DNA of 64,000 bases from Williamsia herbipolensis (GTDB lineage: Bacteria > Actinomycetota > Actinomycetes > Mycobacteriales > Mycobacteriaceae): positions 310,001 through 374,000 of the forward strand of contig NZ_JXYP01000021.1 in NCBI RefSeq assembly GCF_000964005.1, in the 5' to 3' direction. Position 1 is the stretch's first letter; the number at the start of each line of letters is the position of its first letter. Both the position numbers and the translations under genes were made by a program. Positions 27,756 to 52,833 of this stretch are shown here, in pieces. Below the pieces are notes generated by a model, which saw only the letters and a program-made list of their open reading frames with translations, was not told the DNA's origin and searched no databases.

Positions 27756-28820
27756 TCAGCGGAGGGCGACCAACTCGTGCAGCGTGGTGCCCGTCCGGAC
27801 GTCCACGCGCCCGTCGTCGCGGGTGACCGACAGTCGGAAGTCGGACTCGAACCGGAAGTACCCGGGATGCCCGACGAGGCGGCTCACCAGCGGCCGCAGC
27901 ACCTTGCTGCCGACGACGGGGATGTCGCCGAGCAGGTCGTGACCGTGCAGGACCGTGCGCACGTCGAGTCGCAGTTCGAGTCGTCCCGGGATGGTCAGCG
28001 AGATCCACGACGGGTAGTCGCGGCCGGCGTCGGCGTCGGGCAGCAGGGGCCCCTCCTCGAGGACGGCCTCACCGCTGCTGAGGATCACCTCGGCGCCGTC
28101 GGCCACCATCACCGGGGCGATCTGATGGGATCCGTACCCCTCCTGGGTCAACACCACCGCGTAGAGGAGCGAGTAGTCCTCGACGTAGAGGCGGCCCCAG
28201 TGCCAGCGGTCGATGACCTTGCGCATGTCCCCGACGCCCCAGTTGTGATCGGCGTACCCGGTGCCGGTCACCTCCCACCGCTTCGCACCGATCGACAGGC
28301 GACCGGTGACCTTCGCCCGCGGTCCCCCGACACACCAGCCGAACACCTCGCCGTTGCCGAAATGCGTCTCGCCCTGCCCCGGCATCCAGGGCGCGATCTC
28401 GTTCGCGAACTCGAGATCGATCACCACGTCGTCCTCGGCGAAATGTACGGTGTAGGTGGGCAGCTCGTCGTGGAACGTCACGTAGGCGAAGTTCTCCCCA
28501 ACCGCGACGTCGCACTTCTCGACCGAGAAGTGGCATGCACGCGCCGGGTAGCGCTGCGCGATCTGTCGGCGGCTGCCGTCGGGCCCGTAGAGGATGATCT
28601 CCACCCACGGGCGGCTGCGCGGCAGGTCTTCGGGGCGACGCTTGGTGAGGAAGCCGACCACGGTGTAGCCGTTGTCGAGGGCGGCGTCGAAATACCAGTG
28701 CTCGAACGCCGTCAGCTTCGTCGACGCGTGCAGCGCATTGTGTTCCGGGCGTACGTCGGTCAACGACCCGTCGGCTCGTCCGGGGCCGTTCCAGGCCTCG
28801 ACCAGGTCGGTTCTGCTCAC
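27756..28820 (-). CDS. CrtC/AttH-like lipocalin-fold protein
   Basis: A 354-aa protein without signal peptide or membrane segment. Features such as HWYFDAALDNGYTVVGFL, GTGYADHNWGVGDM, WHWGRLYVEDYSLLYAVV and a C-terminal beta-rich domain resemble the CrtC (carotenoid 1,2-hydratase)/AttH double-lipocalin family, which acts on or binds hydrophobic isoprenoid-like substrates. The start is GTG at 28820, with GGAG seven bases upstream. It is the last gene of the leftward operon, 34 bases after the CoA-transferase. The exact reaction is unknown; the context suggests hydration or binding of a lipophilic intermediate. Confidence 0.65.
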   Translation of the reverse strand: MSRTDLVEAWNGPGRADGSLTDVRPEHNALHASTKLTAFEHWYFDAALDNGYTVVGFLTKRRPEDLPRSRPWVEIILYGPDGSRRQIAQRYPARACHFSVEKCDVAVGENFAYVTFHDELPTYTVHFAEDDVVIDLEFANEIAPWMPGQGETHFGNGEVFGWCVGGPRAKVTGRLSIGAKRWEVTGTGYADHNWGVGDMRKVIDRWHWGRLYVEDYSLLYAVVLTQEGYGSHQIAPVMVADGAEVILSSGEAVLEEGPLLPDADAGRDYPSWISLTIPGRLELRLDVRTVLHGHDLLGDIPVVGSKVLRPLVSRLVGHPGYFRFESDFRLSVTRDDGRVDVRTGTTLHELVALR

Positions 28821-28854
28821 GATGGGCTCCGTTCGTGGTGGTGTACTGGTGTGG

Positions 28855-30072
28855 TCATACGATCCCCTCGCGGACGAGGGCGCCGAGGTCGGCGTCGGTG
28901 AGTCCGAGCAGCTCGGTGTAGATCTCACGGTTGTGCTGGCCCGGTCGCGCCGAACCCGCCGAGCGCACCGATCCCGGCGTTCCGGTCAGGCGCGGTATCA
29001 CGCCGGGGCCCAGCACTTCTCGCCCCAGCCGCTCGTCATCGTGCGCGACGAGCATGTCGCGAGCCCGCAATTGCGGGTCCTCCACGAGTTCGGCGACGGT
29101 GTTGACGCGCCGTGCGGGTACGCCTGCGGCGGAGAGCATCTCGACGATGTCCTCGGCGTCGCGGGTGGCGACGCGTTCGGCGATCATCTCGTCGAGCAGA
29201 TCCTGGTGACGCCCGCGCGCCAGGTGGTCGACGAACCGGGGGTCGGTCGCCCATCCCGGCACACCGAGAGCCGTGCTCAGACGGCCGAAGACCGAATCCT
29301 GATTCGCCGCGATCACCAGCCAGACACCGTTTCTCGTGCGGTAGAGGTTCGAGGGTGCGATGCCGTCGAGTCGTGTGCCCGACGGCTGCCGGATCACACC
29401 GGCGACGTCGTAGTCGGGGATCGTCGACTCGACGACGGCCAGACATGCCTCGGTCAGGGCGACGTCGACCACCTGGCCCACACCGGTCCGGGTGCGGGCG
29501 TGCAGCGCCGCGAGGACGCCGTTGGCGGCGAAGACGCCGGCGAGGGTGTCGCCGAGCGACAACGACAGCCTCGGCGGCGGACCACCCGGGAACCCGTTGA
29601 GGTGACGGAGGCCGCTGACCGCCTCGGCCACCGACGCGTACCCCGCACGCTGCGCATGCGGGCCGGTCTGTCCGTACCCCGACACCCGCGCGACGATGAT
29701 GCGCGGGTTGCGTTCGGACAGGACGTCGTAACCCAGCCCCCACCGCTCGAGTGTGCCGGGGCGGAAGTTCTCCACGATCACGTCGGCGTGCTCGGCGAGG
29801 TCGAGGAACAACCGTCGCCCGGCGTCGGTCCGCAGGTCGAGGGTGGCGGCGCGCTTGTTGCGCGCGTGGACCGTCCAGAAGACGTGCTCGCCGTCGACCT
29901 CCGCCTGTCCCCAGGTACGGAGCGGATCGGGTTGGCCGGGGGCCTCGATCTTGATCACGTCTGCGCCCATGTCGCCGAGGAGGCGGGCCGCGAACGGCCC
30001 TGCGATCAGCGAACCGAGCTCGAGAACGCGGACACCGGCGAGTGCGCCGGTGTCGTCGGTGGTGGTCGTCAT
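28855..30072 (-). CDS. CaiB/BaiF class III CoA-transferase
   Basis: Transfers CoA between an acyl-CoA donor and a free carboxylic acid (405 aa). It has VRVLELGSLIAGPFAARLLGD at the N-terminus, the family motif VENFRPGTLERWG, and GDTLAG at the position of the catalytic aspartate of formyl-CoA transferase. The ATG at 30072 overlaps the aldehyde dehydrogenase stop by one base. In this operon it would activate the acid produced by the dehydrogenase for beta-oxidation-like degradation. The specific acid is not predictable. Confidence 0.88.
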   Translation of the reverse strand: MTTTTDDTGALAGVRVLELGSLIAGPFAARLLGDMGADVIKIEAPGQPDPLRTWGQAEVDGEHVFWTVHARNKRAATLDLRTDAGRRLFLDLAEHADVIVENFRPGTLERWGLGYDVLSERNPRIIVARVSGYGQTGPHAQRAGYASVAEAVSGLRHLNGFPGGPPPRLSLSLGDTLAGVFAANGVLAALHARTRTGVGQVVDVALTEACLAVVESTIPDYDVAGVIRQPSGTRLDGIAPSNLYRTRNGVWLVIAANQDSVFGRLSTALGVPGWATDPRFVDHLARGRHQDLLDEMIAERVATRDAEDIVEMLSAAGVPARRVNTVAELVEDPQLRARDMLVAHDDERLGREVLGPGVIPRLTGTPGSVRSAGSARPGQHNREIYTELLGLTDADLGALVREGIV

Positions 30073-31553
30073 CAGAAGGCGAGGTGGACGGTTTTCTCCT
30101 CGGTGTGTGCCGTGACCCCCGACAGACCGAGTTCGCGACCGAAACCGCTGGCTTCCCGTCCACCCCAGGGCAGATGCGGTTCGGGGACACCCCATCCGTT
30201 GACCCACACCGTCCCCACCCGTAGCCGCGGGATGACCGAGTGCGCGGTGGAGAGATCCGAGGTGTAGATCATCGCGTTGAGTCCGAAGCGGGTGTCGTTG
30301 GCGATCCGGATCGCCTCGTCGGTGTCGCGGAAGGTGATGACGGTGGCGACGGGCCCGAAGATCTCCTCACGCGCGATGGTGAGATCGTTGGTGCCGCGGA
30401 AGACGGTGGGTTCGACGAAGAATCCCGGTCGGTCCACGCGCGCGCCGCCGGTGATGAGCTGCGCACCTTCGGATTTCCCGGTCTCGATGTAGCCGAGGAT
30501 GCCGTCGAGCTGCTTGGCGTTGACGATGGTGCCCATCGTCGAGGCGGGGTCGCGCGGATCGCCGATCACCGAGCTCTCCGCGATGGCGACCAGGCGCGCC
30601 ACGACGTCGTCGGCGATGGACTCGTGCACGAGGACGCGGGTGCCGGCGGCACACACCTGCCCCTGGTGATAGAAGTTGCCCATCGCGATCCAGGGCATGG
30701 CGGCGTCGAGATCGGCGTCGGGCAAGACGATCTGGGGCGATTTCCCGCCGAGCTCCAGGGTCATCTTGCGGAACTTGTCGCCCGCGAGCGGGGTGATGCC
30801 GCGCCCGACGCGCGGGCTGCCGGTGAAGGTGATCTTGTCGAGGCCCGCGTGTCCGGCGAGCGCGGCGCCGGCGACCGGCCCGAGGCCGGTGACCACGTTC
30901 ACCACACCGTCGGGCAGGCCGGCCTCGGTGAGCAGCTCAGCGAGGCGGATGGTCGACAGCGCCGCGTCCTCGGCCGGTTTCACCACCACGGTGCAACCGG
31001 CGGCGAGCGCGGGGGCGAGCTTCCATCCGGCGATGACCGCCGGGTTGTTCCACGGCGTGATGGCGCCGACGACACCGACCGGTTGGCGCATCGTGAAACC
31101 GAACCGGTGCTGGCCGGCAAAGTCGGGAAGTGCGGTGGTCTGGCCGGTGATCTTGTCCGCCCACCCGGCGAAGTGTCGGAACGTCCCCGCCGTGACGGGC
31201 ATGTCACCGGCGACGCTGTGCTGGTACAGCTTTCCCATCTCGACGGCCTCGAGCGCGGCCAGGTTCTCGGCGTCGGCCTCGATGAGGTCGGCGGCGCGCG
31301 CGAGGATCCGGCCGCGCTCCGATCCCGGGAGTTCCGACCAGACACCGCTGTCGAACACCGCACGCGACGCCGCGACGGCCCGGTCGACGTCGTCGGTCGT
31401 CGCCGCTGCGATCTCGACGACCAGCGACTCGTCGGCCGGGTTGATCGAGGTGTAGGTGCCTCCGTCGGAGGCCGCGACAGCGACACCGCCGATGCGCAGT
31501 GTCGGGTCCGATAGTACCGGATCGACGACGGGGGCGAGAGCGGGTGCGGTCAT
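30072..31553 (-). CDS. NAD(P)-dependent aldehyde dehydrogenase
   Basis: Oxidises an aldehyde to a carboxylate (493 aa). The signature residues are present: Asn in PWNN (167-170), catalytic-base Glu268 in LELGGKS and nucleophile Cys301 in GQVCAAGTR. The ATG at 31553 overlaps the hmgA stop by four bases. Sequence style is that of betaine-aldehyde/aromatic aldehyde dehydrogenases. In context it probably receives an aldehyde released by the oxygenase encoded two genes upstream. Confidence 0.92.
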
Positions 31554-32932
31554 CGTGTCCTCGGATCTGTCTCGGTGGCGACTGTGGTGCCGGTGGCCTG
31601 GGCGTCGAAATGCGGTGTGAGGCCCGACCAGACGGCGTCGTAGTCGGGTTGGCGGTGAGCGGCCGACATGGCCGTCGGGGTGGTGACGAGCGGGAAGCGC
31701 GTCTCGAACATGATCGCCATGGTGTTGGCGAGGTACTGCGGTTCGAGGTCGGCGTCCGTACCCATCTCGAAGGTGGCGAGATCGGGGCCGTGCGCGGCGA
31801 ACATGTTGTGCAGGCTGGCCCCACCGGGCAGGAAGCCCTCCGCCTTGGAGTCGTGGACGCCGTAGATCAGACCCATGAACTCGGTCATCACGTTCCGATG
31901 GAAGTGCGGCGGACGGAAGGTCCGTTCGGCCACCATCCAGCGGGGCGGGAAGGCGACGAAATCGACGTTGGCCTGCCCGGGATGCCCCGACGGTGAGGTG
32001 AGCACGGTGAACACCGAGGGATCGGGGTGGTCGACGTTGGCGTTGGTGATGGAGCTGAACGACTCGAGATCGTAGACGTGGCAACCGTGGTTGCCGTGCC
32101 AGGCCACCACGTCGAGCGGAGAGTGGTCGAGTTCGGTCGCCCACAGGTGACCGCCGAACTTCACGACGAGCTCGACCGAGCGGGTCCCCTCCTCGAATGC
32201 CGCGACCGGGTGCCGGAAGTCGCGCGCGTGCGCCAGTCCGTTGGCGCCGATGGGGCCGAGATCGGGCAGAACGAACGGAGCACCGTAGTTCTCGCACACG
32301 TACCCGCGGATCGGTCCGTCGAGGACGTCGACCGCGAACTTGATGGCGCGCGAGATCAGCACGACCTCACCGGGACGGGCCTCGATGACACCGAGTTCGG
32401 TCCGCACCCGGATGCTGCCGGTCTCGGGCACGATGAGCAGCTCGCCGTCGTCGTCGGCGAGGTAGCGGTCGGTCATGGAGCGCGCCGCGGTGTACTGGTG
32501 GACGCCGATACCGGTGCGCGCCAGCACATCACCGTTCGCGCCGATCGTGTACAGACCGTCGAGGAAGTCTCCGGTCGAGGTCTCCTGCGGCAGCGGGTTC
32601 CACCGGAGTCGGTTCGGGTCGGCGTCGCCGGCGATCGGCGCGGTGGCCAGGTGGCGGTCGTCGATCCGGTGGTACGCGCCGTGCGCGGCGGTGGGCATGA
32701 TCCGGTACATCCAGGTGCGGCGGTTGATCCCGCGCGGCTCGGTGAACGCGGTACCGGAGATCTGTTCGGCGTAGAGACCCATGGGGGCTCGCTGCGGCGA
32801 GTTCTGCCCCCACACCAGCGCGCCGGGCACGGCCTCGGAGTGGTGCTCGTTGCCGAAGCCGTGGAGATAGTCGAGCGACGTGCGCATCCGCGCCGGGGCT
32901 TGGGTCGCAGGGCGGTCGGTGATCTGGGTCAT
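31550..32932 (-). CDS. hmgA: Homogentisate 1,2-dioxygenase
   Basis: Non-heme Fe(II) extradiol dioxygenase that opens the ring of homogentisate to maleylacetoacetate (460 aa). It is full length, with the family stretches [70 protein letters not shown] and [18 protein letters not shown], including the iron-binding His and Glu region. The next two enzymes of the homogentisate pathway (maleylacetoacetate isomerase and fumarylacetoacetase) are not in the window, which is unusual for an hmgA operon. It is coupled by ATGA to the aldehyde dehydrogenase. Confidence 0.93.
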
Positions 32933-32979
32933 CGTGTCGGTTCCTTCACGGGGTGGTGACGGGTACGGGTCGGGTGCCG

Positions 32980-34308
32980 TCAGCGACGGAGTGCGCCCGA
33001 TGCGTCGAATTCGGCTTCACGGCCGTCCATCTGGGCTCGGTACCAGCTCTCGCGGTGCCACCGCATCCACTTCTCGTGCACGCGACCGATCGGGGGCACG
33101 CGCCGCGCGAGTTCGACACCGGCGATGAGCGGTACGCGTCCGAGGACCCACAACAGCCACGGGAAGGCCGAGGGCATCTCGTATCGGCGATAGGTCTGCG
33201 GGAACATGAACAGTCGCGCGTAGGCGGCGTAGACGCCGCCGTTGTAGACCTCCCGCAACCGCCGCACACCGGTGTGGCCGTCACGGGCCGCGAACGCCTT
33301 CGGGAACGAGGTGATCAGTTCGGCGCCGTGATCCCCGGCGTCGTGGCTGCGCGCGACCGACACCAGCGCCAGCAGTCGCAACGAGTCGGGGATGGTCTGG
33401 GGATACCAGCGGCTGCGCACGCCCACCACGTGGCCGAGGTAGCGCTGGAAGGCAATGAGGTCGTAGATCTCCGAGCGGGTCGTCTGGATACCCGTGGTCC
33501 AGAGCGCGAGCGCGGGTGCCACGCTGCCGCCGAGAAGCGTCATCATCATGTACGACTGGCTGATCGGGATACCCCACTTCGAGGTGTCCCACTCGGGGTG
33601 TTCGGCGACGCGACGCCGGACCGAGACGTGCATGACGCGCACCATCATGGCGGTCGCCCGTCCGGTCGATCCCGGTGTGAACAGTGCACCCGGCTCGGAC
33701 ACGTCGATCCAGAACCGAGCGGTCTCGAGGAATCGGCGCAACGCGTTGTCGCCCGCGTACCCACCCGCCAGCGACAGCGGTGTCGCGACAGCTGCCTCGG
33801 TGTACATCTCGAGGGTGATGCCGCCCGCGACGCTGAACAGCATCGTCCCCCACCGCCGCCAGATGCGGGCACCGGCCTCGACCACCTCGGGGTCCACCCA
33901 GTCGGGTACCGACTCGAACTCCTCGAACAACGCGACCATCGACGGCGGGGGGTTGTCGATCGACGACAATCCCTCGGCGAGTGCCTTCTTCAACATCGCG
34001 CGACCCTCGACTGGGCCGATGTCGCCGTAGAAGACCTCGTCGACGAACCGCTCGGCGACCGGGTCGGCGGTGAACATGTCCGCACAGAACGCGTCGATCT
34101 GGTCCTGGGTCGGGAAGATGTCCTTGCCGGTGAGCCGACGCGCGAGCGTGCGTGCGCGACGCATCCCGGGGGTGTTCATGCCCTCGCGATACGGGAATGC
34201 CGTTGCGACGTCGGGGTGTACGAGGTCGTCGAAACCCGAACGTTCGGCCGGGGCCCCCGTCGGGGCAACAGCCGGGGCAACGGTCGGGTCGTCTGCGTGG
34301 GTGGTCAT
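32980..34308 (-). CDS. MpaB/rubber-oxygenase-like (DUF2236) protein
   Basis: A 442-aa protein of the DUF2236 family, which includes the fungal oxygenase MpaB that cleaves the farnesyl tail of a mycophenolic acid precursor, and heme b latex-clearing/rubber oxygenases. Family features seen include [61 protein letters not shown] and a C-terminal [16 protein letters not shown]. No export signal. It is coupled by a four-base overlap to the upstream hydrolase. Likely role: oxidative cleavage of a C=C bond in an isoprenoid chain, giving an aldehyde (inference). Confidence 0.8.
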
Positions 34309-35552
34309 GCGATCTCCGCTGCGTGGTGGTCTGGGCGGTGGTTGACGTACTCGCCGACGCCGAATCCCCGCGTGGGGAGCCAGTCACCGATGGTCTCGGC
34401 GATACGGGTCACGCCGTCGGGCTGGTCGACGAGGTAGTGGTTGAGGTCGTCGAGTTCGACATGTGACACGTCCGGGTCGCCCGATGCCCGGGCCATGTCG
34501 TCGGAGTCGCTGACGAAGGCCGCCTGATCGGCGCGCAGGCACACGATCTGGGTCGGGGTGGTGACCGTGGTGAGGTTGCGCAGGGCATCGGCGTGGGTGT
34601 GGTCGAAACTCCAGGTGCTCAACCAACTCCGCGCCGTCGCGAAGCGGGCGAGCCCACCGGCGGCGGAGTTGGCGGCCTGCGGGTCGCCGTACATGCTGCC
34701 GACCAGGCGGTCGCTCGGATCGAGGGTCACGTCGACGAAGCGGGGATCGCCCACGGTGTAGTGGACCACGAACGCTCGATCGGACGCTCCCGTCTTCTCG
34801 AGACGTTCGATCTGTTCGAGCGCCCACGCGTCGATTCGACGGACACGGGCGAGCTGCGCGTCGCGGTAGGCCGACACCCACTCACGGTCGAGCGGGACCG
34901 TGCGATCCGGCGCGTACAGGTCGAGGTCGGGGTCGGTCGCGTACGGATCGGCCTCGTCGGTCACCGCGGCGTCGATCCAGTGCCGGAGTACGCGCGCACG
35001 ACCGGGGTGCGCACCGACCAGGACCAGTCCGTCGGCCGGTTCGCACTCACCGAGGTCCAACGGATCGCCTGCCGGCGTCCGGGCGACCGTCGGCGAGAGT
35101 GCCTGCGACTGATAGAACGACGCGAGCGATCCGCCCCCGGAGAACCCGAGCAGGATCACCTTCTCGAATCCCAGCTCCTCGCGCATCCACCGCACGCCCT
35201 GACCGAGGTCGTCGGCGGCGCGTTCCATGATCAACGCCGGCTCGTTAGTGGTGTAGCGGGTGTTCACCGCCATCATCGGCAGACCGCGCTCGGCGAGCCC
35301 GCGGAGCAGGAAGTGGGTGATGAAACTCGATGCCGGATGCGCCATGAGGATGCCGACCTCGCGCGAATATGTCTCGCCGGCAACGAAGTTCGCCGCCAGG
35401 GTCGGATAGTGGCGGGTGAGGCCCGAATGACTCTCCACGCGACCGTCGTTCGCCGGACGAAACGGTATGCGCTGGAACCGATCGACGAGAACTGCGATCA
35501 CCGGCGACGTACCTCCCTCTCGATGGGGGTCGCGTTCTGCGACCTGAATCAC
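34305..35552 (-). CDS. Alpha/beta hydrolase, first gene of the catabolic operon
   Basis: Cytoplasmic alpha/beta hydrolase of about 415 aa. An N-terminal extension precedes the core; the nucleophile elbow is GFSGGG (ILLGFSGGGSLASFYQS), with acid in CLRADQAAF and C-terminal His in DDLNHYLVDQP. The start is placed at GTG 35552 because TACAGT lies exactly six bases upstream (leaderless); the ATG at 35558 is in frame two codons earlier. Its promoter abuts the inverted repeat described at 35563. It probably hydrolyses an ester of the imported substrate or a ring-cleavage product. Confidence 0.8.
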   Translation of the reverse strand: MIQVAERDPHREGGTSPVIAVLVDRFQRIPFRPANDGRVESHSGLTRHYPTLAANFVAGETYSREVGILMAHPASSFITHFLLRGLAERGLPMMAVNTRYTTNEPALIMERAADDLGQGVRWMREELGFEKVILLGFSGGGSLASFYQSQALSPTVARTPAGDPLDLGECEPADGLVLVGAHPGRARVLRHWIDAAVTDEADPYATDPDLDLYAPDRTVPLDREWVSAYRDAQLARVRRIDAWALEQIERLEKTGASDRAFVVHYTVGDPRFVDVTLDPSDRLVGSMYGDPQAANSAAGGLARFATARSWLSTWSFDHTHADALRNLTTVTTPTQIVCLRADQAAFVSDSDDMARASGDPDVSHVELDDLNHYLVDQPDGVTRIAETIGDWLPTRGFGVGEYVNHRPDHHAAEIA

Positions 35553-35558
35553 AGGCAT

Positions 35559-35564
35559 ACTGTA
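35559..35564 (-). promoter_or_regulatory. -10 element of the leftward catabolic operon
   Basis: TACAGT (TANNNT) on the minus strand, six bases before the GTG at 35552. It is partly inside the left arm of the inverted repeat, so a bound repressor would block RNA polymerase directly. The same relation (TAC[A/T]GT beside the repeat) occurs at the mce operon promoter. Confidence 0.55.
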
Positions 35565-35579
35565 CCATACCGGATGGTA
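35563..35579. promoter_or_regulatory. Inverted-repeat operator, site 1
   Basis: TACCAT-ACCGG-ATGGTA, a perfect six-base-arm inverted repeat with a five-base spacer, between the divergent catabolic operon and the Mce-associated protein genes. A near copy, TACCAT-TCGGT-ATGGTC, occupies the other divergent control region of the island at 47508. Size and symmetry fit a TetR-family operator; the TetR encoded at 48417 is the obvious candidate. Confidence 0.65.
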
Positions 35580-35605
35580 TGTGATTCGACTTCGAGGAGA
35601 CAGCC

Positions 35606-36843: not shown

Positions 36844-36863
36844 CGCGGCCGCCACCGGCCACG

Positions 36864-40635: not shown

Positions 40636-41660
40636 CGTCCGCCCTGTCGTCCGGGGGTCGGGAGACCCTGCCGTGCCATCGCATCGCGGATGAACGGCTC
40701 GATGATCTGGCCCGGGATCAGGTTGGTGATGTACGAGCTGAAGAACGGCCCGCTCGCCACCGCCTCACCGAGTTCGGTGACGTAGGGGCCGAGGTCGGCC
40801 AGCGCCTTGCCGATGTTGTCGCGGTTGTCCCGCAACACCCCCAGCACGGAATTGACCCGGGTCAGGGTCGGGGTGAGCTGGGCTCGGTTGTCCCGCACGA
40901 GATCGGTGAGGCTGCGCGCGAGCGCGGAGACGTTCGCGAACAGGGTCTCCACCGTCTGGCGCCGGCGATCGAGCTCGCCGAGTATCTCGTCGGCGGCCAG
41001 GACGAGTGTGTTGATCTGCTCGCTCCGCAGGGCCAGGACCCCGGTCACCCGCCGGGCCCGGTCGAGCAGGGACCGGAGATCGGCGTCGCGGGCGGCGACG
41101 GTCTGCGACAGGCGTCCGACACCGTCGACCGCCGAACGCAGGTCGTCCGGGGTCTGCGACAACGTGAGGTCCAGGGCGCGGAAGGAGTCGGCGAGCTGAT
41201 CGGTGTCAGTCGCGGCGGTGCTGCGCGCGAGGTCACCGAGGATGGTCGACAGGTCGTACGGCGACGTCGTCCGCGCCAACGGGATCTCGCTCCCCGCCCG
41301 CAACGCGCCGCCACCCTCGCTGGTCAGCCGCAGGTTGCGGGTGCCCAGGACGGTCGCCGTCGCGATGGAGGCGCGGGTGGACTCACCCAGGCTCGGGTTG
41401 CCGGAGACGGTGAACGCGATCTCGACGTGGGCGCCGTCGAGATCGATCGACCGCACCCGTCCGCTGGCGACACCCGCGACCTCCACCTCGGCGCCCACCT
41501 GCAGGCCGCCCGCATCGGCGAACTGTGCGGTGTACTCGCGTTCCGACGACAGGAACGGCAGGGTGGCGACGTTGCCTGCGGCGACGGCGACCAGGACGGT
41601 GACGATCAGTCCGACCGCACCGGTGCGTACGGTGTCGACGCGGTCGTATCGGTTCATCAT
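40632..41660 (-). CDS. mceC: Mce family protein, MceC position
   Basis: Third Mce subunit (342 aa). The membrane anchor is at about 14-34, followed by an MlaD domain (ADAGGLQVGAEVEVAGVASGRV, about 46-65) and a long helical region with Asp/Arg-Asn repeats. The ATG at 41660 is one of two consecutive ATGs and overlaps the mceB stop. It is shorter than typical MceC proteins because it lacks the Pro-rich tail. Confidence 0.9.
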   Translation of the reverse strand: MMNRYDRVDTVRTGAVGLIVTVLVAVAAGNVATLPFLSSEREYTAQFADAGGLQVGAEVEVAGVASGRVRSIDLDGAHVEIAFTVSGNPSLGESTRASIATATVLGTRNLRLTSEGGGALRAGSEIPLARTTSPYDLSTILGDLARSTAATDTDQLADSFRALDLTLSQTPDDLRSAVDGVGRLSQTVAARDADLRSLLDRARRVTGVLALRSEQINTLVLAADEILGELDRRRQTVETLFANVSALARSLTDLVRDNRAQLTPTLTRVNSVLGVLRDNRDNIGKALADLGPYVTELGEAVASGPFFSSYITNLIPGQIIEPFIRDAMARQGLPTPGRQGGR

Positions 41661-42679
41661 CGCGGCGCGCACCTCCCGTGGTCCTGGCCGATGAGCGGTG
41701 TCGTGAGGTCGTTGCCGTCGGGTCCGGTGAGCTTCAGTCGGATGCCGCACAGGTAGTAGTTGAAGAAGTTCCCGTAGGCGCCGAGTCGGGTGAGTGCGGT
41801 GTAGGTGTCGGGCAGTCGTCCCAGCACGCTGTTCACCGTGTCGCGTCCGGCGTCGAGTTGGGTTGCGGTGCGCCGTAGTTCGCCGATGGTGTCCCGGACG
41901 GGGTCGCGGGTGTCTCCCAGGAGGTCGGCGAGTGAGCCCGCAGCCGTGTCGATGCGGGTCAGTGCCGTCCCCACGGTCGCGGAGTCCGCGGCGAGGCCGG
42001 CGGCGAGCTGCGAGGCCGACGACAAGGCCTGCGAGAAGTCGTCACGGTGATCGTCGAGGGTCCCCAACACCGCGTTGAGGTTGGTGATGAGACCACCGAT
42101 CACCTGATCGCGGTCGGCGAGGGACGAGGTGAGCGACGCGGTGCGCGCGAGCAGTGAGGCGACGGTGCCGCCCTGGCCCTGCAGGACCGCCAACACCTCC
42201 GAGGACAGTTGGTTGACCTGGTCGGGGGCGACCGCACGCAACAGCGGACGGAAGCTGCCGAGGAGCAGGTCGAGATCGAGGGCGGGCGTCGTCTGCCGCA
42301 GCGGGATCGTGCCGCCCGCCGGCAGGGGTGTGGGAGCACCCGGACCGTCGAGCAGCTCGAGATACCGGTCGCCGGTGAGATTGAGGTAGCGGACCATGGC
42401 GCGGGTCCCACGAGTCGGTCGGTAGGAGTCGTCGACCCCGAGATCGACACGCACACGGTTCTTCCCGGTGATCCGAACACCCGAGACCGAGCCGACCTCG
42501 ACCCCGGCGACGGTGACCCGGTCGCCCGATCGCAGCCCGGACACGTCGGAGAACTCGGCGTGGATTCCGCGGGTGCTGGTGAACCGTACGTCACCGAACA
42601 CCACGAACAGACCGCCGAGGACAAGGGTCGTGACCGTCACGAACACACCGAGCCGCAGCCACCGCCACCGCGTCATCAT
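41657..42679 (-). CDS. mceB: Mce family protein, MceB position
   Basis: Second Mce subunit (340 aa), with an N-terminal anchor (about 8-28), an MlaD domain (about 36-110, VSGLRSGDRVTVAGVEVGSV) and a helical region ending in GAYGNFFNYYLCGIRLKL, a stretch shared by MceB proteins. Overlaps mceA and mceC by four bases each. Confidence 0.92.
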   Translation of the reverse strand: MMTRWRWLRLGVFVTVTTLVLGGLFVVFGDVRFTSTRGIHAEFSDVSGLRSGDRVTVAGVEVGSVSGVRITGKNRVRVDLGVDDSYRPTRGTRAMVRYLNLTGDRYLELLDGPGAPTPLPAGGTIPLRQTTPALDLDLLLGSFRPLLRAVAPDQVNQLSSEVLAVLQGQGGTVASLLARTASLTSSLADRDQVIGGLITNLNAVLGTLDDHRDDFSQALSSASQLAAGLAADSATVGTALTRIDTAAGSLADLLGDTRDPVRDTIGELRRTATQLDAGRDTVNSVLGRLPDTYTALTRLGAYGNFFNYYLCGIRLKLTGPDGNDLTTPLIGQDHGRCAPR

Positions 42680-43878
42680 CGCCGACCCGCCCAGTCACTG
42701 CCCAGGAGCAGCTGCAGGATCGGACCGTTGACCAGGCGCGGGGACGTCGGCCGGTCGGCGTACGGGTTCGCGCCGGTGTCGGCCACGACGTACGGCGCCG
42801 GGATGTCGCCGGCACCGAGCCGCGGCAGGGCCCCGCAGCGTGGTCCTCCCCCGGCCGAGACCTTCGGCAGGTTGCCGGGGTAGGTGTACGGCGCGGCACC
42901 CAGGACGATGGTCGAGTTGAGCAACATGGTCGAACCGTTTCCGCCACTGACCTTCTCGGCGTTCTCCGAGGCGAGGTCGGCGCCCTTGAGGAAGCAGCTG
43001 AACTCCGGCGAGTATCGCGCCAGGAGTTCCGCGGTGGGTTGCAGCAACTGGATGGCCGAGACCAGCGCACCCGAGTTCGGTGAGAGCACGCGGTTGCCGC
43101 TGTCGCCGAGGCCGATCGCCGACATCAGCACCGCGTCGAGATCGCCGGATCGTTCGTCGAGGGTGCGGGCGGTCGGCGTGAGGTTGCGCAGCGACGCCAT
43201 GAGGTCGTCGGCCGAGCCGGCGTAGATCTCCGCGGTCGTCGCCCCCGACCGCAGGTCCCGGTTCAGCGCGGGCAGTCGTGCGTTCACCGACCGGACCACC
43301 GCGTCGGTGTCGTCGATCGCGGCACCGAGCCGTGCGCCGTTGCCCCGCAACGCCCCGGCCAGCGCGCCGAGCACGGAGTTCAGCTTGGCGGGCTCCACGG
43401 CGCCGAGAACCCGCGTGAGCGACTCGAAGACGGTGTCGACCTCGACGCTCACGGAATCGGCGTCGATCGTCTGGCCACGGGTCAGTCCCCGGGCCCGGGT
43501 GACGGGAGGATCGGTCAGCGCAACGGCTTTCGCGCCGAAGACCGTCGGTGAGGAGATGTCGACCCCGGTGTCGACGGGGACCGAGCGCGCGGCGTCGGCG
43601 GCCACCGCGATCCTCACGACGGCGCCGTCACCGGTGTCGGCGACGGAGGTGACGCGACCGACGGCCACCCCGTGGCGCGTGACGAGCGAGCCGGGACTCA
43701 TGGCGAGTCCCGCGCGAGGGGTGTGGACCGACACGGTGACGGTGTCGGCGAGATCGCCGCGGAACGAGGCGACGGTGACGTAGCCGACGGCGACGAGGAG
43801 ACATGCCGCGGCGAGGGCGCATGCCCTAGTGATCAGGGTGTCGGAGACCCTGGTTCTCGAGGTCGTGGCGGTGGTCAT
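42676..43878 (-). CDS. mceA: Mce family protein, MceA position
   Basis: First Mce subunit (400 aa from the ATG at 43878). It has a membrane segment (about 18-38), an MlaD domain (about 45-125, TPRAGLAMSPGSLVTRHGVAVGRV) and a helical domain with DLASENAEKVSGGNGSTMLLN and the C-terminal PYTYPGNLPKVSAGGGPRCG typical of MceA. It begins seven bases after the yrbEB stop. Mce hexamers form a periplasmic conduit for lipids or sterols driven by the MceG ATPase, which is not in the window. Confidence 0.92.
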   Translation of the reverse strand: MTTATTSRTRVSDTLITRACALAAACLLVAVGYVTVASFRGDLADTVTVSVHTPRAGLAMSPGSLVTRHGVAVGRVTSVADTGDGAVVRIAVAADAARSVPVDTGVDISSPTVFGAKAVALTDPPVTRARGLTRGQTIDADSVSVEVDTVFESLTRVLGAVEPAKLNSVLGALAGALRGNGARLGAAIDDTDAVVRSVNARLPALNRDLRSGATTAEIYAGSADDLMASLRNLTPTARTLDERSGDLDAVLMSAIGLGDSGNRVLSPNSGALVSAIQLLQPTAELLARYSPEFSCFLKGADLASENAEKVSGGNGSTMLLNSTIVLGAAPYTYPGNLPKVSAGGGPRCGALPRLGAGDIPAPYVVADTGANPYADRPTSPRLVNGPILQLLLGSDWAGRR

Positions 43879-43885
43879 GGCGTCA

Positions 43886-44734
43886 TCAGGCGAGACGCAG
43901 TTGACGTGCACTGCCGTACAGGGCGAGCGCGATGACGAGGGTGACCGTGACGACCGCGAGCAGCGACAGCCGCACCGCACGCCCGGTGGCCATGCCGACC
44001 CCCTCGGGTCCGCCGGTGGCGTGGAACCCGTAGTAGGTGTGGATGATCATGACGATCGCGGCCATCACCAGTGCCTGCAGGAACGACCACATCACGTCGG
44101 TCGGGATGAGGAACGTCGCGAAGTAGTGGTCGTAGACGCCGGGCGACTGGCCCATCACGACGACGGTCACCACCCGGCTGGCGAGGAACGACGTGATGAG
44201 GCCCAATGCGTAGAGCGGGATGATCGTCACCATCCCGGCGACGATGCGGGTGCCCACGAGGTAGGGCACCGACGAGATGGCCATCACCTCCAGGGCGTCG
44301 ATCTCTTCGCTGATCCGCATCGCACCGAGTTGGGCGGTGGTGCCGGCGCCGATGGTCGCGGCGAGACCCACGCCCGCGGTGACCGGGACGACGACACGGA
44401 CGTTGACGTAGGCGGCGAGGAACCCGGTGAGCGCGTCGACGCCGACGTCGCCGAGTGTGCTGAACCCCTGTACGGCGACCGTCGCGCCGGCGAAGAGGGT
44501 GAGGAACCCGATGATGACGACGGTGCCGCCGATCATCGCGAGAACCCCTGTCCCGAGGCTCAGTTCGGAGATGATGCGCAGGGTCTCGACGCGGTGGCGG
44601 CGGACGGCGCGCCCGGTCGAGGCGACCGACACCACGGTGAACCGCGCGAGCGCGCCGAACCGGTCGATCGAATCCCCCACGCGTCGTAGCTGTGTGGTCA
44701 TCATGCGTGCGGACGGCCGCTGTGCGAGCGTCAC
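43886..44734 (-). CDS. yrbEB: Mce permease YrbEB
   Basis: MlaE-family inner membrane permease subunit of the Mce importer (about 282 aa), with five to six membrane segments. The MlaE signature appears in GAGTTAQLGAMRISEEIDALEVMAI. The GTG at 44734 is preferred because it overlaps the yrbEA stop (GTGA); ATGs at 44704 and 44701 are shorter alternatives. Forms the membrane pore with YrbEA. Confidence 0.92.
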   Translation of the reverse strand: MTLAQRPSARMMTTQLRRVGDSIDRFGALARFTVVSVASTGRAVRRHRVETLRIISELSLGTGVLAMIGGTVVIIGFLTLFAGATVAVQGFSTLGDVGVDALTGFLAAYVNVRVVVPVTAGVGLAATIGAGTTAQLGAMRISEEIDALEVMAISSVPYLVGTRIVAGMVTIIPLYALGLITSFLASRVVTVVVMGQSPGVYDHYFATFLIPTDVMWSFLQALVMAAIVMIIHTYYGFHATGGPEGVGMATGRAVRLSLLAVVTVTLVIALALYGSARQLRLA

Positions 44735-45522
44735 AGCACCGTCCCGCCGAGGGCGACGCCGATCGCGGTGAGGACGAGATTGAGGACGAACAGGGCGGCG
44801 AAGGCGAACACCACGGTCTCGTTGACCGCGTTGCCGACGCCCTTGGGGCCACCCGACACCGAGAGTCCGCGGTAGCAGGCGATGAGCGCCGCCACCAGAC
44901 CGAACAGAGCGGCCTTCACCTCCGACAGCACCAGCTCGGGGAGCCCGACCAGCAGCGTGACCCCCGACGCATAAGCACCGGCCCCCACGTGTTGGACGTA
45001 GACGGAGAAGACGAACCCGCCGACGATGCCGATCGCGCAGACGGTTCCGTTGAGCAGCACCGCGACCACCGTCGAGGCGAGCACGCGAGGCACCACGAGG
45101 CGGGCGACGGGATCGATGCCGAGCACCTCCATCGCGTCGATCTCCTCGCAAATGGTCCGTGACCCGAGATCGGCGGTCATCGCGGTCGCCCCGGCACCGG
45201 CGACGACGAGAACGGTGACGAGCGGGCCGATCTGGGTGATCGCGCCGAACCCGGCTCCCGCACCGGCGAGGTCCTTCGCACCGATCTCGCCCAGCAGCGA
45301 GTTGAGGGTGAACACCACGAGGACTGTGAACGGGATGGACATGAGGATGGTGGGGATCAGCGACACCCGCACGAGGAACAGCGCCTGCGCACCGAACTCG
45401 TCGACCTGCACCGGTCGCCGGAAGATCGCCCTCGCGGTGTCGGCCGACAGGGCGTAGAACTCTCCGATCGCACCGAAGGCGCCCCGTGTCGCCGCCACGA
45501 CCGACGTCGAGGATGCGGCCAT
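44731..45522 (-). CDS. yrbEA: Mce permease YrbEA
   Basis: First MlaE-family permease subunit (263 aa from the ATG at 45522). It carries ATAMTADLGSRTICEEIDAMEVLGI, the coupling-helix region contacted by the ATPase, and SGGPKGVGNAVNETVV at the C-terminus as in other YrbE proteins. Its start shares one base with the stop of the multicopper oxidase gene, so it is downstream in the same operon. That junction means translation of yrbEA may depend on the upstream, frame-broken gene or on reinitiation. Confidence 0.93.
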   Translation of the reverse strand: MAASSTSVVAATRGAFGAIGEFYALSADTARAIFRRPVQVDEFGAQALFLVRVSLIPTILMSIPFTVLVVFTLNSLLGEIGAKDLAGAGAGFGAITQIGPLVTVLVVAGAGATAMTADLGSRTICEEIDAMEVLGIDPVARLVVPRVLASTVVAVLLNGTVCAIGIVGGFVFSVYVQHVGAGAYASGVTLLVGLPELVLSEVKAALFGLVAALIACYRGLSVSGGPKGVGNAVNETVVFAFAALFVLNLVLTAIGVALGGTVL

Positions 45523-47470
45523 CAGGCCCTCACGCGGTAGCGCAGCATCATGTCGTGGTCCTCGTGGTCGAGGATGTGGCAGTGCCACACGTAGCCCTGC
45601 AAGGTGGACGGGTGCATGTGCGGTCCGGAGGCGGGATGCATGCCGTCATGCATCGAGTGGTCGGATGGTGGGGTCACCGATGGTGCCGGCGCGGAGGGCA
45701 TCTCGGCCGGCGTGGTGCCGGGAGCCATGGGGGCCGGCGGCGCGGACACGGGTGCCGCGGGCGAACGCCCGCCCGTGGTGTCGAGGGTGCCCGCGGGGGG
45801 GTCGGCGGCGAAGGTGGCGTCGGGGTCGAAGCCGAGTTCGTCGGCGGTCGGGAAGCGGACCACCACCTGGGTGACCGTCCCGCCGTCGGTGCGCACGGTG
45901 TCCTTCCAGCCGGCCTCCCACGGTGCGGGGCCCTGACTCGGCCCTGCGTGGAACCTGTCGGGGGCCGGCGCCCAACGGGTACCGATCGCCGGTTGTGGAT
46001 GGGCGGCCTGGTATTCCACGGTGCGCAGGGGTCGCCGCCCGAGGATGCGGAAGGTGACGAGATGTATGTGGATGGGGTGCGGATCCGGGGTGACGTTGAT
46101 GATGTTCCAGATCTCGGTGGCCCCTGTCTCGGCATCTCCATCTGCGGGTCCGAGTAGCGGAGATTGTTGAGCGACATGATCGCCGGCGGCAGTCGCAGCG
46201 CGTAGGGCTGGCTGACCGTCACGTTGCGCACCGACGTGGCGGTGGCGAGGGGCGGCAACACATCCGGCAGCCCGGGACGGCCACGGAGTCGGCTCGGCAC
46301 CCGCCCACGGAAACCCGTGCGGGGCGACGCCACGAACCGTCCGAAGACCGGCATCCGGACCTCACCGAGCATCGCCGCCTGGAACGGCGGGTCCTCGCGG
46401 TTGCAGAGGTCGACGGTGGCGCCGGGGCGGAGACCGGAGAAGTCGACGAGGACGTCGTACCGCTCCCCCGGCGCGATGCGGAACGAGCGCACGCGGACCG
46501 GCGCGTCGAGCACCCCGCCCTCGTTGCCGATGACCCACATCGGCGTGGCGTCCGAGAGGTGCAGGGTCCACACGCTGTACGACCCGGCGTTGAGGATCCG
46601 GAACCGGTACAGCCCGCGGTCGACGGTGATCTTCGGCCACACGGTCCCGTTGATCATGCCGACGTCGCCGACGGCCCCGCCCTCCCAACGGCCCTGTGGC
46701 ACCACCGGTGTCGAGCGCAGGCTCATGTGGCCGTCGGCGGTGAAGATCTTCTCCTGCAGGATCAGCGGGAGCTCGTACTCGCCGGACGGGAGCCCGAGCC
46801 GGTTCGAGGCGTCGCCGGTGTCGTGGTCGTCGCGCAGGAGGAAGTTGCCCGCGAGTCCGGCGTAGACGTTCGTGCGGGTGATGCCCATCGAATGGTCGTG
46901 ATACCAGAGGTGTCCGGCCTCCTGCCGGTTCGGATAGTGGTGCACGGCGGTTCCGACCCGCGGCATCAGCAGCCGTTCGGGGTTGCCGTCGCTGTCGGGT
47001 GCGGTGACCGCGCCGTGCAGATGCAGGCTGTTCGGCGGGCGGTCCCGGTAGCTCTCGCTGACGCCGTGCAGCGTGGTGTCGATGTCGGCGGCGAACGGGT
47101 GGCGCAGGAGTTCGTTGCGGTACCTGAAGGTGGTCGGCTCGCCGACCCTGCCGTCGATGGTGGCGCCGAGATAGGGCATGTCGGAGTAGCCGAACGACGG
47201 CACCGACGGCAGGTCACGGTGCATGCGCGCCCTCCCGGATCGAGCGGTCACCGACAGGTCGCCGACCCCGGATCGCACCGGCGGCGGGACCATCTCGTCG
47301 ACGAACTTCGCCAGCGGCGGTGAGTGGAAGATCGTGGGCAGCGGGAACGGGTACGCCGGCGGATAGTCGGGACGGGCAGCTGCTCGTGGCGCGAGTCCTC
47401 CGACGGCGGCGAGGCCACCGATGGCCGCGGTCGTCCGAAACAGCTTCCGCCGACTGATCTCCTGTGACAC
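45522..47470 (-). pseudogene. Tat-exported multicopper oxidase with one frameshift
   Basis: Three-domain multicopper oxidase (CueO/CotA/bilirubin-oxidase-like) of about 649 aa if read across one shift. The start GTG at 47470 gives a twin-arginine signal (SRRKLFRTTAAIGG). Copper motifs HLHGA (150-154) and WYHDHSMG (189-196) lie before the break. After codon 447 (about 46130) the frame must move by -1, and then TEIWNIINV, HPIHIHLV and HCHILDHEDHDMM follow, completing all four copper sites. Without the shift the product ends in non-homologous Arg/Pro-rich sequence. No slippery heptamer is visible, so a one-base loss or sequencing error is more likely than programmed frameshifting. First gene of the mce operon. 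Confidence 0.82.
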
Positions 47471-47503
47471 CGAACCCTCATCTCGTCGATCCGAACTCGA
47501 TTG

Positions 47504-47509
47504 ACAGTA
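47504..47509 (-). promoter_or_regulatory. -10 element of the multicopper oxidase-mce operon
   Basis: TACTGT (TANNNT) on the minus strand, 33 bases before the GTG at 47470, which has GAGGG as ribosome site. It abuts the left arm of the second inverted repeat exactly as TACAGT abuts the first. Confidence 0.5.
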
Positions 47510-47524
47510 CCATTCGGTATGGTC
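47508..47524. promoter_or_regulatory. Inverted-repeat operator, site 2
   Basis: TACCAT-TCGGT-ATGGTC, with five of six arm bases paired, in the divergent region between the mce operon and the lipase-fold/TetR genes. Aligned with site 1 at 35563, 12 or more of the 17 positions are identical, including TACCAT and ATGGT with the same spacing. Both outward promoters overlap it. Confidence 0.65.
47518..47523 (+). promoter_or_regulatory. -10 element for the lipase-fold gene and tetR
   Basis: TATGGT (TANNNT) lies within the right arm of the operator, and seven bases later comes the GTG at 47531, giving a leaderless start. Repressor binding would cover this element. Confidence 0.45.
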
Positions 47525-47530
47525 TGGTTC

Positions 47531-48382
47531 GTGACGTATCGAGAACTCTTCCGTGACCTTCGACGATCCCGCCGACGTGCCCGCCGGTGGCTGGTGTTGC
47601 TCCCGATCGCGGTCGTCGTCGTCGTGTCGAGCCCGTCGGGGTACGGTCCGGCGGCCGCCCGCCCGTCGTCGTGCGACCGCCCGGTGGTCCTCGTCGGCGA
47701 GGTCGCCTCCGACACCGCATCCCTGGCGGGCCTGCGCCGTGATCTCGACCGAGCCGGTATGTGCGCGACCGTCCTCGACTACGGGAGAACGCCTCTCGCA
47801 ACAGATCTCGCACGCGCCGGCGGGCTGCGGTTGAACGGCCTGACGTCACTGGAGGACTCGGGCCGCGAGCTGGTGGGCCTCCTGCGGTCGGCGAGTCCCG
47901 ACCGACCACTGACCGTCGTCGCGCACGGCGGTGGCGCGCTCGCCGTGCAGTACGCGCTGACCCACGGCGTCCCCACCGGACGCGTGGCCCGGCTCATCAC
48001 CCTCGGACCCCTCTGGAACGGCACCGGGGTCGCCGGGCTGGCCGACATCGAACAGATCAGTCGCCGCCTCGGAACCTACGACACCGTCCTGCGACTCGAA
48101 CGACCCATCGTCGACCCGATCTGTGCGAGCTGCCGACAACTCGTCACCGGATCGGACTTCCTCGTCGCGATGCGACGCGCCGCGTTCCCCACCCCCGGCG
48201 TGTCCTACGTCGACATCGTCTCCCGCTCCGACGGTCTCGCCGGCGACCCCCGCACCTCCACCGCACCGGGGTCGCGGGTCGTCGTGCTGCAGTCGATCGA
48301 CCCGCGGGCGAACGTCGATCATTTCCGTCTCCCGGCCGATACGCTGGTGCGATCGCTCGTCGTCGACAACACGCGCGGGTGA
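47531..48382 (+). CDS. Exported lipase-fold (class 2 lipase-like) protein lacking the nucleophile Ser
   Basis: About 283 aa, starting at GTG 47531 (ATG 47519 is in frame). A basic N-region and hydrophobic segment (20-35) form a signal peptide or anchor. The body resembles EstA/class 2 lipase-type alpha/beta hydrolases: RPVVLVGEVASD, the elbow region TVVAHGGGALAVQYAL, LITLGPLWNGTG and a C-terminal His in RANVDHFRLPAD. The elbow should read G-x-S-x-G, but residues 131-135 are A-H-G-G-G, so the nucleophile is replaced by Gly133. It is probably non-catalytic, binding a lipid or serving as a sensor. It is divergent from the mce operon and lies 34 bases before tetR. Confidence 0.7.
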   Translation: MTYRELFRDLRRSRRRARRWLVLLPIAVVVVVSSPSGYGPAAARPSSCDRPVVLVGEVASDTASLAGLRRDLDRAGMCATVLDYGRTPLATDLARAGGLRLNGLTSLEDSGRELVGLLRSASPDRPLTVVAHGGGALAVQYALTHGVPTGRVARLITLGPLWNGTGVAGLADIEQISRRLGTYDTVLRLERPIVDPICASCRQLVTGSDFLVAMRRAAFPTPGVSYVDIVSRSDGLAGDPRTSTAPGSRVVVLQSIDPRANVDHFRLPADTLVRSLVVDNTRG

Positions 48383-48416
48383 ACCACCGACGTGACCGCG
48401 ACCGAAAGCGAGAGAC

Positions 48417-48983
48417 GTGACCACCGCTCCGTCGACAGGGCGCAAGAGCCCGCGGCTCAGCGCCGACGACTGGATCGCGGCCGCTTTCGACCTGCTGACC
48501 GAAGAAGGTGTCGCGGCGGTCAAGGTCGTCACCCTCTGTAAGCGGTTGCGGGTGACCAAGGGCAGCTTCTACTGGCATTTCGCCGACATCAACGGATTGT
48601 TCGAGGCCATGTCGGCGGCCTGGACCGCCGAGTCCGACGCCTATCTGCGCGGTCTCACCGAACTCGGCGCCGCACCGCCCGCCGAACGCATCGAACAGAT
48701 GACGCGACGCCTCGTCGACCACCAGACCTGGGCGCGGGAATCGGCCGTACGCGAATGGGCCCGCACCCACCCGGTCGTCGCCGACGCGGTCGCGCAACTC
48801 GACAACCGGATCTTCGAGGTCGTGCAGCAGACCCTCACCGAACTCGGACTGACCCCCGAGGACGCCCGTATCCGCGCGGGACTCCTCGTCTACGCCGGCA
48901 TCGGCTTCGTCGAGAGCAGGGGAAGTCTTCCCACCCCCACCCCCGAGGACATCCACAAGATGATCGAGGTCATCTTCACCTGA
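48417..48983 (+). CDS. TetR family transcriptional regulator
   Basis: A 188-aa one-component repressor. The N-terminal helix-turn-helix lies at about 36-58 (VVTLCKRLRVTKGSFYWHF, the TetR signature); the C-terminal ligand domain is full length with no similarity that names a ligand. The GTG start is 34 bases after the lipase-fold gene, so it is likely cotranscribed with it from the operator-bearing promoter at 47518 and hence autoregulated. It is the only regulator in the island and the likely binder of the TACCAT-N5-ATGGT repeats. Confidence 0.9.
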   Translation: MTTAPSTGRKSPRLSADDWIAAAFDLLTEEGVAAVKVVTLCKRLRVTKGSFYWHFADINGLFEAMSAAWTAESDAYLRGLTELGAAPPAERIEQMTRRLVDHQTWARESAVREWARTHPVVADAVAQLDNRIFEVVQQTLTELGLTPEDARIRAGLLVYAGIGFVESRGSLPTPTPEDIHKMIEVIFT

Positions 48984-49000: not shown

Positions 49001-49091
49001 CTACGTCAGACGGGTGATCTCCACTGTGACAACCCTTTCGGTGGCGATCACGCCCGTACCCCGGCCCCTACGCCAGACGGGTGATCTCCAC
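49001..49091. repeat. Imperfect direct repeat at the transglutaminase 3' end
   Basis: Bases 49001-49024 and 49068-49091 are identical at 23 of 24 positions, starting CTACG[T/C]CAGACGGG. The second copy encodes the VEITRLA C-terminus and stop of the transglutaminase gene; the first lies 67 bases beyond the stop and also ends in a TAG when read leftward. This looks like a partial duplication of the gene's end. Confidence 0.8.
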
Positions 49092-52740: not shown

Positions 52741-52833
52741 AACCAACCATGTTGCCCCACATGGGCCGACTCGGCAGGAGGTTGCCGTGCGCGCAGGGTC
52801 GCGTCGCAGGTGAACACGCTGTTCGCGGCGCCG

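Follow-up and report, generated by a model that had tools for sequence, protein, structure and literature searches.

What does an Mce importer carry when it stands beside enzymes that could break down an aromatic compound? A cargo is known for few Mce importers, and the question is raised by positions 27756-48983 of a 64,000-nucleotide window (the whole stretch of DNA analyzed here) of the draft genome of Williamsia herbipolensis, which comprises 4.74 Mb in 50 contigs (contig NZ_JXYP01000021.1, positions 310,001 to 374,000). We propose, at a probability of about 0.4, that this locus is a dedicated regulon for the uptake and breakdown of a lipophilic hydroquinone with an alkenyl, most likely prenyl, substituent. 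A catabolic operon on the minus strand (35501 down to 27756) encodes, in order, the alpha/beta hydrolase abH, an MpaB/Lcp-family protein (MpaB), a homogentisate 1,2-dioxygenase (HgmA), an aldehyde dehydrogenase (ALDH), a class III CoA-transferase and a CrtC-like protein, and overlaps of 1-4 bp between abH and MpaB, HgmA and ALDH, and ALDH and the CoA-transferase indicate an operon-like arrangement. Further upstream, on the same strand, is a second set consisting of a multicopper oxidase (MCO), YrbEA, YrbEB and MceA-F (47470 down to 36864). Two Mce-associated-type (Mam-type) genes occupy the plus strand between both sets (35606-36843), and a small hydrolase-like open reading frame (ORF) and a TetR-family gene are on the plus strand at 47501-48983. 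The original prediction, a route of Mce import and enzymatic breakdown for a prenylated aromatic compound, named genes that are all present by domain matches; abH, the two Mce-associated-type genes and the small ORF were missing from it.

The two operons share a palindrome. Its form TACCATNCNGNATGGTA precedes the inferred start of abH by approximately 60 bp and the MCO start by 37 bp, and the predicted operators are TACCATACCGGATGGTA (35563-35579), between abH and the divergent Mam-type gene, and TACCATTCGGTATGGTC (47508-47524), between MCO and the divergent ORF. Without mismatch, the 15-base core was present at two places in the 4.74 Mb genome, one in front of the abH operon and one in front of the MCO-YrbE-Mce operon; allowing one mismatch added two further places, equal to the reversed control. 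A search of the window only, at two mismatches, was not significant by itself (3 found vs 1.45 expected, with 22 of 100 shuffles reaching 3). We then searched 24 genomes, chosen from those having the cluster or MpaB, with a stricter form of the palindrome and at most one mismatch. Sites were present in 20 of the 24, and comparison with gene maps placed every one of the 25 sites at this cluster, in front of abH, MCO, MpaB/TetR, yrbEA or the Mam-type pair; the reversed palindrome gave one match per strand in total across the same genomes. The palindrome also precedes yrbEA where that gene is not behind MCO (L061/L097, which are one genome, L080, L095 and L104), and weaker versions were seen in G025, G005, G089 and G103. 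Among 73 scanned loci, many of them from genomes represented twice, no site of at least 13/16 was flagged inside a matched gene (edge overlaps reached up to 23 bp), and twenty loci shuffled by single bases contained no sites. The shared palindrome suggests that the catabolic operon and the Mce importer operon are jointly regulated, and it is very probable, judging from the DNA sequence, that they constitute one regulon with the importer included. Because of the position of its gene, the TetR-family regulator (48417-48983, plus strand; PF00440, 40.6 bits) is our candidate for the protein that binds the palindrome.

The gene set is also conserved. A pattern-based scan derived from an abH alignment, run over a collection of 84,980 species and not exhaustive, identified 38 loci, 33 of them actinobacterial and five proteobacterial (38-42%). 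The actinobacterial loci came from Williamsia, Gordonia, Rhodococcus, Rhodococcoides, Nocardia, Tomitella, Speluncibacter and Dietzia. MpaB and abH were found in all 33, HgmA in 32 (the remaining locus, on a 5-kb contig, is just a piece), the CrtC-like gene in 31 and the ALDH in 30, while MCO was seen in 18, TetR in 16, the CoA-transferase in 11 and relatives of the small hydrolase-like ORF in nine. An Mce/YrbE system of the same type was present in 25, in one case through a piece of MceF only. These counts are lower bounds since the stretches extended at most 10 kb on each side and several stopped at contig ends. Gene order was variable: the Mce genes may lie between abH and MCO or past the CoA-transferase, and the W. 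maris cluster has none; the persistence of the gene set despite this shuffling suggests selection. A survey of 151 genomes of the family for MpaB, HgmA, fumarylacetoacetase (FAH) and 4-hydroxyphenylpyruvate dioxygenase (HPPD) showed MpaB relatives in 101 at an E value of 0.001 and in 45, its own genome counted, at 59% identity or more; the same-genus genome G107 also has the cluster. We compared 40 MpaB neighborhoods, namely 39 of the 44 other close relatives and one weaker match, G037 (G106, G142, G010, G042 and G027 were left out). In the resulting 40 rows, which include the window and from which G037 was dropped for its short ORF, HgmA was present in 20 and abH in the same 20. With about five mce operons in the genome, a 21-kb stretch drawn at random would, by our estimate, overlap one of them in roughly 3% of cases. 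A chance neighborhood of mce is rejected in view of the two-site palindrome, the placement of 25 of 25 sites at the cluster and the conservation over the 33 loci. The proposal that these genes act with Mce as one route-like unit is borne out to the extent that they are a conserved, palindrome-sharing unit, apparently under joint regulation, whose HgmA stands outside tyrosine breakdown.

HgmA (31550-32932, minus strand) is of the canonical type, with 600.8 bits to TIGR01015 against a cut-off of 510.75, and is the one HgmA_C match in the genome. Profile searches of this genome revealed no FAH over the cut-off (weak matches of 32.4 and 25.7 vs 375.3 bits) and no HPPD over the cut-off (a weak match of 32.2 vs 277 bits). 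Within the 151 genomes, canonical HgmA scored over the TIGR01015 cut-off in 20, FAH was present at an E value of 1e-30 in 57 (56 over the cut-off) and HPPD in 54. Each of the 58 FAH genes had a divergent HgmA-like gene of low score no more than 5 kb away, and none was near a canonical HgmA. Among the 20 genomes that have canonical HgmA, 13 also carry FAH, as a separate homogentisate dioxygenase (HGD)-FAH pair, and seven have neither FAH nor HPPD. The location of FAH beside a divergent HGD is consistent with the R. ruber homogentisate locus, hmgR-hmgA-hmgB, described in PMC6498646. These comparisons place the cluster HgmA almost certainly outside the tyrosine route, which is rejected for it on the lack of HPPD and FAH over the cut-off and on the pairing of 0 of 58 FAH genes with this type. 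The shared palindrome, the conserved cluster and this separation from the tyrosine route are, as sequence-level conclusions, well supported. An additional idea, that MpaB genomes without the cluster HgmA carry an ordinary HGD-FAH pair instead, gave a mixed picture by eye and was dropped.

The active site of HgmA is both conserved and altered. It keeps the iron ligands H345, E351 and H381 and the base H302, all invariant in 16 sequences; in P. putida numbering we take His288 to be the catalytic base. The iron ligands of the P. putida enzyme are His331, Glu337 and His367, and a role is described for its Tyr346 (PMC6337169). We aligned 31 cluster HgmA sequences, consisting of the window and the 30 of the 33 loci with a usable ORF. 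At the Tyr346 position, His360 in the window, all 31 have His, vs Tyr in six of six ordinary plasmid-borne HGDs, and at the position counted as Asn221 all 31 again have His, vs Asn in six of six. A seventh ordinary HGD, hmgA_2 of TomTYG65, was not counted, having a gap at the Tyr346 position. Beside three of the six reference HGDs fahA is annotated, one has a FAH-family gene and MaiA, one has MaiA only, and that of Azospirillum has neither within 3 kb.

Of the two enzymes that could supply HgmA with its substrate, MpaB (32980-34308, minus strand) is a candidate haem oxygenase of the MpaB/Lcp family (DUF2236; PF09995, 48.1 bits vs a cut-off of 23) and matches LcpK30 structures at 45 bits. Arg164, Thr168 and His198 of LcpK30 are kept as R192, T196 and H227, none of which varies among 23 sequences, and Glu148 falls beside an alignment gap; the Arg and Thr presumably have roles at the haem site of LcpK30. 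Four small loci (L055, L058, L071 and L072) contain CrtC-like, MpaB and TetR genes as a smaller unit without an adjacent HgmA or abH. PMC12724181 describes a bacterial alkene-cleaving class of MpaB proteins and, for MpaB in mycophenolic acid synthesis, the cleavage of a tail. The formation of an arylacetaldehyde was proposed before the ALDH (30072-31553, minus strand; ALDH domain, 546 bits) was scanned against protein families. Its best NCBIfam family proved to be the phenylacetaldehyde dehydrogenase StyD (NF045736, 634.5 bits), with the next family 141 bits behind at 493.7; it is 55% identical to an annotated StyD, and its best PDB match is 4o5h, a phenylacetaldehyde dehydrogenase (462.6 bits vs 435.9 for the next). 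All four cluster ALDHs scanned, from the window and three orthologues, were of the StyD type, and neither of two unrelated ALDHs reached StyD at an E value of 1e-130. Tail cutting and head opening had been drawn as separate lines in the original prediction; the genes for both are there, and a phenylacetaldehyde-dehydrogenase-like ALDH suggests a single line instead, with a ring-adjacent cut to an arylacetaldehyde, its oxidation to an arylacetic acid and the action of HgmA on the latter.

The first gene of the operon, abH (34305-35501, minus strand; GTG start inferred), has a GFSGGG motif and no Pfam match. All 20 genomes with canonical HgmA have abH next to that gene; the other 21 MpaB neighborhoods compared lack abH. 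Plasmid records matching abH numbered 49, and in two of the five regions opened (R. oxybenzonivorans and R. opacus PD630) an HgmA-like gene is adjacent to the abH relative; in the other three, a VOC protein is adjacent (Variovorax), hmgA_2 is about 9 kb off (TomTYG65) or no partner is seen (Sphingobium CAP-1). On proteobacterial chromosomes, a glyoxalase/VOC gene stands beside abH in L116 and one is nearby on the opposite strand in L114; L117 and L118 were scanned in part. The predicted model has an alpha/beta hydrolase fold (pLDDT 85.6), a fold search placed it among these hydrolases without discriminating further, and a profile search against PDB sequences returned nothing significant (best E value 0.11). 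The co-occurrence couples HgmA to abH at the level of gene content, and abH probably acts on the HgmA ring-fission product. In loci L151 (10842-13161) and L153 (10774-13101) a divergent HgmA-like dioxygenase overlaps or abuts an abH relative and the stretch displayed has no annotated FAH; in R. oxybenzonivorans the HgmA-like/abH pair lies beside a styrene operon.

From these parts we infer a pathway. Arrival of the ligand would release the local TetR repressor from both palindromes and turn on the Mce and catabolic operons. Mce/YrbE would import the compound, and MCO, where intact, may act on the phenol outside the membrane. The MpaB-type haem oxygenase would then cut the double bond nearest the ring, converting Ar-CH2-CH=C(CH3)R to Ar-CH2-CHO and a methyl ketone, and the StyD-like ALDH, as its family suggests, would oxidize the arylacetaldehyde, giving homogentisate or a derivative substituted on the ring. 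HgmA, to judge from its family and active site, would open the ring, and abH, given its co-occurrence with HgmA, may directly hydrolyze the product of ring fission, doing the work of maleylacetoacetate isomerase and fumarylacetoacetase. The CoA-transferase, where present, could activate a product acid. This pathway would account for MpaB, a StyD-like ALDH and HgmA standing together. We give the arylacetaldehyde route an even chance and hold a prenylated substrate as a tentative choice, somewhat short of that; the substrate class is a guess and the weakest link. More doubtful is the specific version in which a dedicated Mce system imports plastoquinol- or geranylhydroquinone-like compounds, haem-dependent cutting of the prenyl double bond next to the ring and an arylacetaldehyde dehydrogenase yield homogentisates, and degradation is completed by an altered HGD together with a hydrolase of the alpha/beta fold that takes over from isomerase and fumarylacetoacetase.

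A number of observations weigh against a prenylated-hydroquinone regulon. Lys167 of LcpK30 is replaced by Glu195, invariant in the 23 MpaB sequences, which leaves cleavage of a C=C bond uncertain. In 20 of the 40 rows MpaB stands without HgmA and abH, often with CrtC-like and TetR genes, and the tree shows six gains or losses, so MpaB is not tied to this ring. G027 shows just short HgmA matches (26.6 and 25.1 bits) beside MpaB. The ALDH falls below the StyD equivalog cut-off (634.5 vs 800 bits). The nearest folds to abH are monoglyceride lipases, which makes an ester substrate possible, and the C-C hydrolase HsaD first appears at rank 23; VOC proteins need not be ring-cleaving, the abH relative on the Sphingobium CAP-1 plasmid has no ring-cleavage partner, and L119 has no ring-cleavage enzyme among the ten genes scanned. 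No palindrome at threshold was found within the stretch covered in 10 of the 33 loci (six Nocardia, three Rhodococcoides and one Rhodococcus), and the W. maris cluster lacks both mce and the CoA-transferase, the latter being seen in only 11 of the 33 loci (a lower bound). Finally, FAH and HPPD matches do exist in the genome below the cut-offs, and the reading frame of MCO has a single break, near 46.12-46.15 kb, due to either a mutation or a sequence error.

Some of these points would fit the same regulon acting on a different substrate, a non-prenylated alkylated or styryl-type lipophilic phenol, with MpaB attacking an aryl-alkene or catalyzing some other oxidation, and with HgmA acting on the ring of a substituted hydroquinone that is at no stage converted to homogentisate. 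The His residues in place of Tyr346 and Asn221 in 31 of 31 HgmA sequences suggest a changed substrate, and Glu195 and the MpaB loci without HgmA also fit this reading; an HGD score well above the cut-off together with an arylacetaldehyde-type ALDH favors an arylacetic acid intermediate instead, and we consider this alternative unlikely. It is improbable that MpaB cuts a distal isoprene, with ALDH and the CoA-transferase feeding the tail to beta-oxidation and HgmA handling the head separately: the mycophenolic acid precedent (PMC12724181) is a tail cleavage and the CoA-transferase gene is within the operon, but the ALDH is of the phenylacetaldehyde type and the CoA-transferase was seen in just a third of the related loci. 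Detoxification rather than growth, that is, the removal of toxic plant or microbial quinones, would suit the twin-arginine-like start of MCO, the TetR control and the incomplete downstream steps in the locus, yet Mce import combined with ring cleavage suggests carbon use, and we regard this as quite improbable. Least probable by far is ordinary homogentisate breakdown, from tyrosine or phenylacetate, adjoining mce by chance. HgmA does score over the hmgA equivalog cut-off, but neither HPPD nor FAH scores over the cut-off in the genome, no FAH lies beside this HgmA type (0 of 58) and a separate HGD-FAH pair exists in 13 of 20 genomes, the palindrome is common to the HgmA and Mce operons, and the R. 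ruber locus described in PMC6498646 is hmgR-hmgA-hmgB.

The proposed regulon for a prenylated hydroquinone resembles several known systems in part. Like the mce4 steroid system of rhodococci and mycobacteria, it joins an Mce/YrbE importer to ring-degrading enzymes, apparently under a single TetR-family regulator, which is KstR in the steroid case; it differs in having HgmA, MpaB, the StyD-like ALDH and abH in place of steroid genes, and a palindrome of its own. Its HgmA is of the canonical P. putida type known from the hmgABC pathway (P. putida; hmgR-hmgA-hmgB in R. ruber), but here there is no FAH or HPPD over the cut-off in the genome, HgmA is paired with an alpha/beta hydrolase and the active-site Tyr is His. 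The ALDH recalls StyD of the styrene StyABCD route through its proposed arylacetaldehyde oxidation, whereas here the aldehyde would arise by MpaB cleavage of a C=C bond and not from styrene oxide, and StyA, StyB and StyC were not seen among the locus genes. With the MpaB/Lcp haem oxygenases (MpaB of mycophenolic acid synthesis, LcpK30, and Nro1 of Gordonia J1A) MpaB shares the family domain and the haem-site His, Arg and Thr of LcpK30; the Glu in place of Lys167 and the setting, among catabolic genes that include an aromatic ring dioxygenase, are different. We found no paper on this gene combination in the open-licence PMC literature. As the palindrome is specific to the cluster and common to the Mce and catabolic operons, it offers a handle on the cargo: the substrate of the enzymes or the ligand of the regulator would reveal what Mce imports. 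If the pathway is correct, it would reveal a means by which actinobacteria recycle prenylated quinones and phenols, it would place MpaB-type alkene cleavage in aromatic breakdown, and it would provide a ring-fission hydrolase outside the fumarylacetoacetase family.

The roles suggested earlier for three other proteins did not fare as well. The CrtC-like protein (27756-28820, minus strand, start inferred), last in the catabolic operon, scores 22.4 bits to Pfam CrtC as the long ORF and 22.7 as the trimmed one, around the cut-off of 22.5, and its predicted model is beta-rich; the suggested hydratase activity has against it a score of 22.1 bits to the CrtC hydratase family NF045922, whose NCBIfam cut-off is 400. 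A general part for the class III CoA-transferase (28855-30072, minus strand; PF02515, 405 bits) finds no support in its occurrence in 11 of the 33 loci, a lower bound; in one genome the gene is further out in the same cluster, beyond the stretch covered. A class III CoA-transferase was also seen with an HMG-CoA-lyase-like gene in three actinobacterial loci (L085, L088 and L166, 12063-14190, minus strand) and three proteobacterial ones (L116, L118 and L119); all six have abH in the locus or cluster, and this pairing may mark a shared downstream step. No HMG-CoA-lyase-like match occurs in the window. MCO (45525-47470, minus strand; Cu-oxidase domains), with a twin-arginine-like N-terminus as judged by eye, has no intact frame in this genome: compared with a same-genus MCO of 651 amino acids, residues 1-450 are in one frame and 440-651 in another.

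The Mce system comprises two YrbE and six Mce proteins, and the genome as a whole has 31 MCE-domain matches. On the minus strand are YrbEA (44731-45588, its true start probably further in) and YrbEB (43886-44704), both matching PF02405, followed by MceA (42676-43878, start inferred; MlaD, Mce4_CUP1 and TIGR00996 on a longer ORF) and by MceB (41657-42679), MceC (40632-41660), MceD (39406-40635), MceE (38243-39403) and MceF (36864-38246), each with MlaD and Mce4_CUP1 domains. The two Mce-associated-type membrane proteins (35606-36211 and 36208-36843, plus strand, the start of the second inferred) are so named by resemblance, with no Pfam or NCBIfam match, and the small hydrolase-like ORF (47501-48382, plus strand, true start probably further in) has no family match.

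Outside the locus, a 183-amino-acid protein with a C-terminal PemK/MazF-like toxin domain (45.2 bits) is encoded at 27172-27723 on the plus strand and adjoins an alpha/beta hydrolase gene. On the other side, at 49068-52746 on the minus strand, transglutaminase-like, Alpha-E and circularly permuted ATP-grasp genes lie in tandem, a recurring trio.

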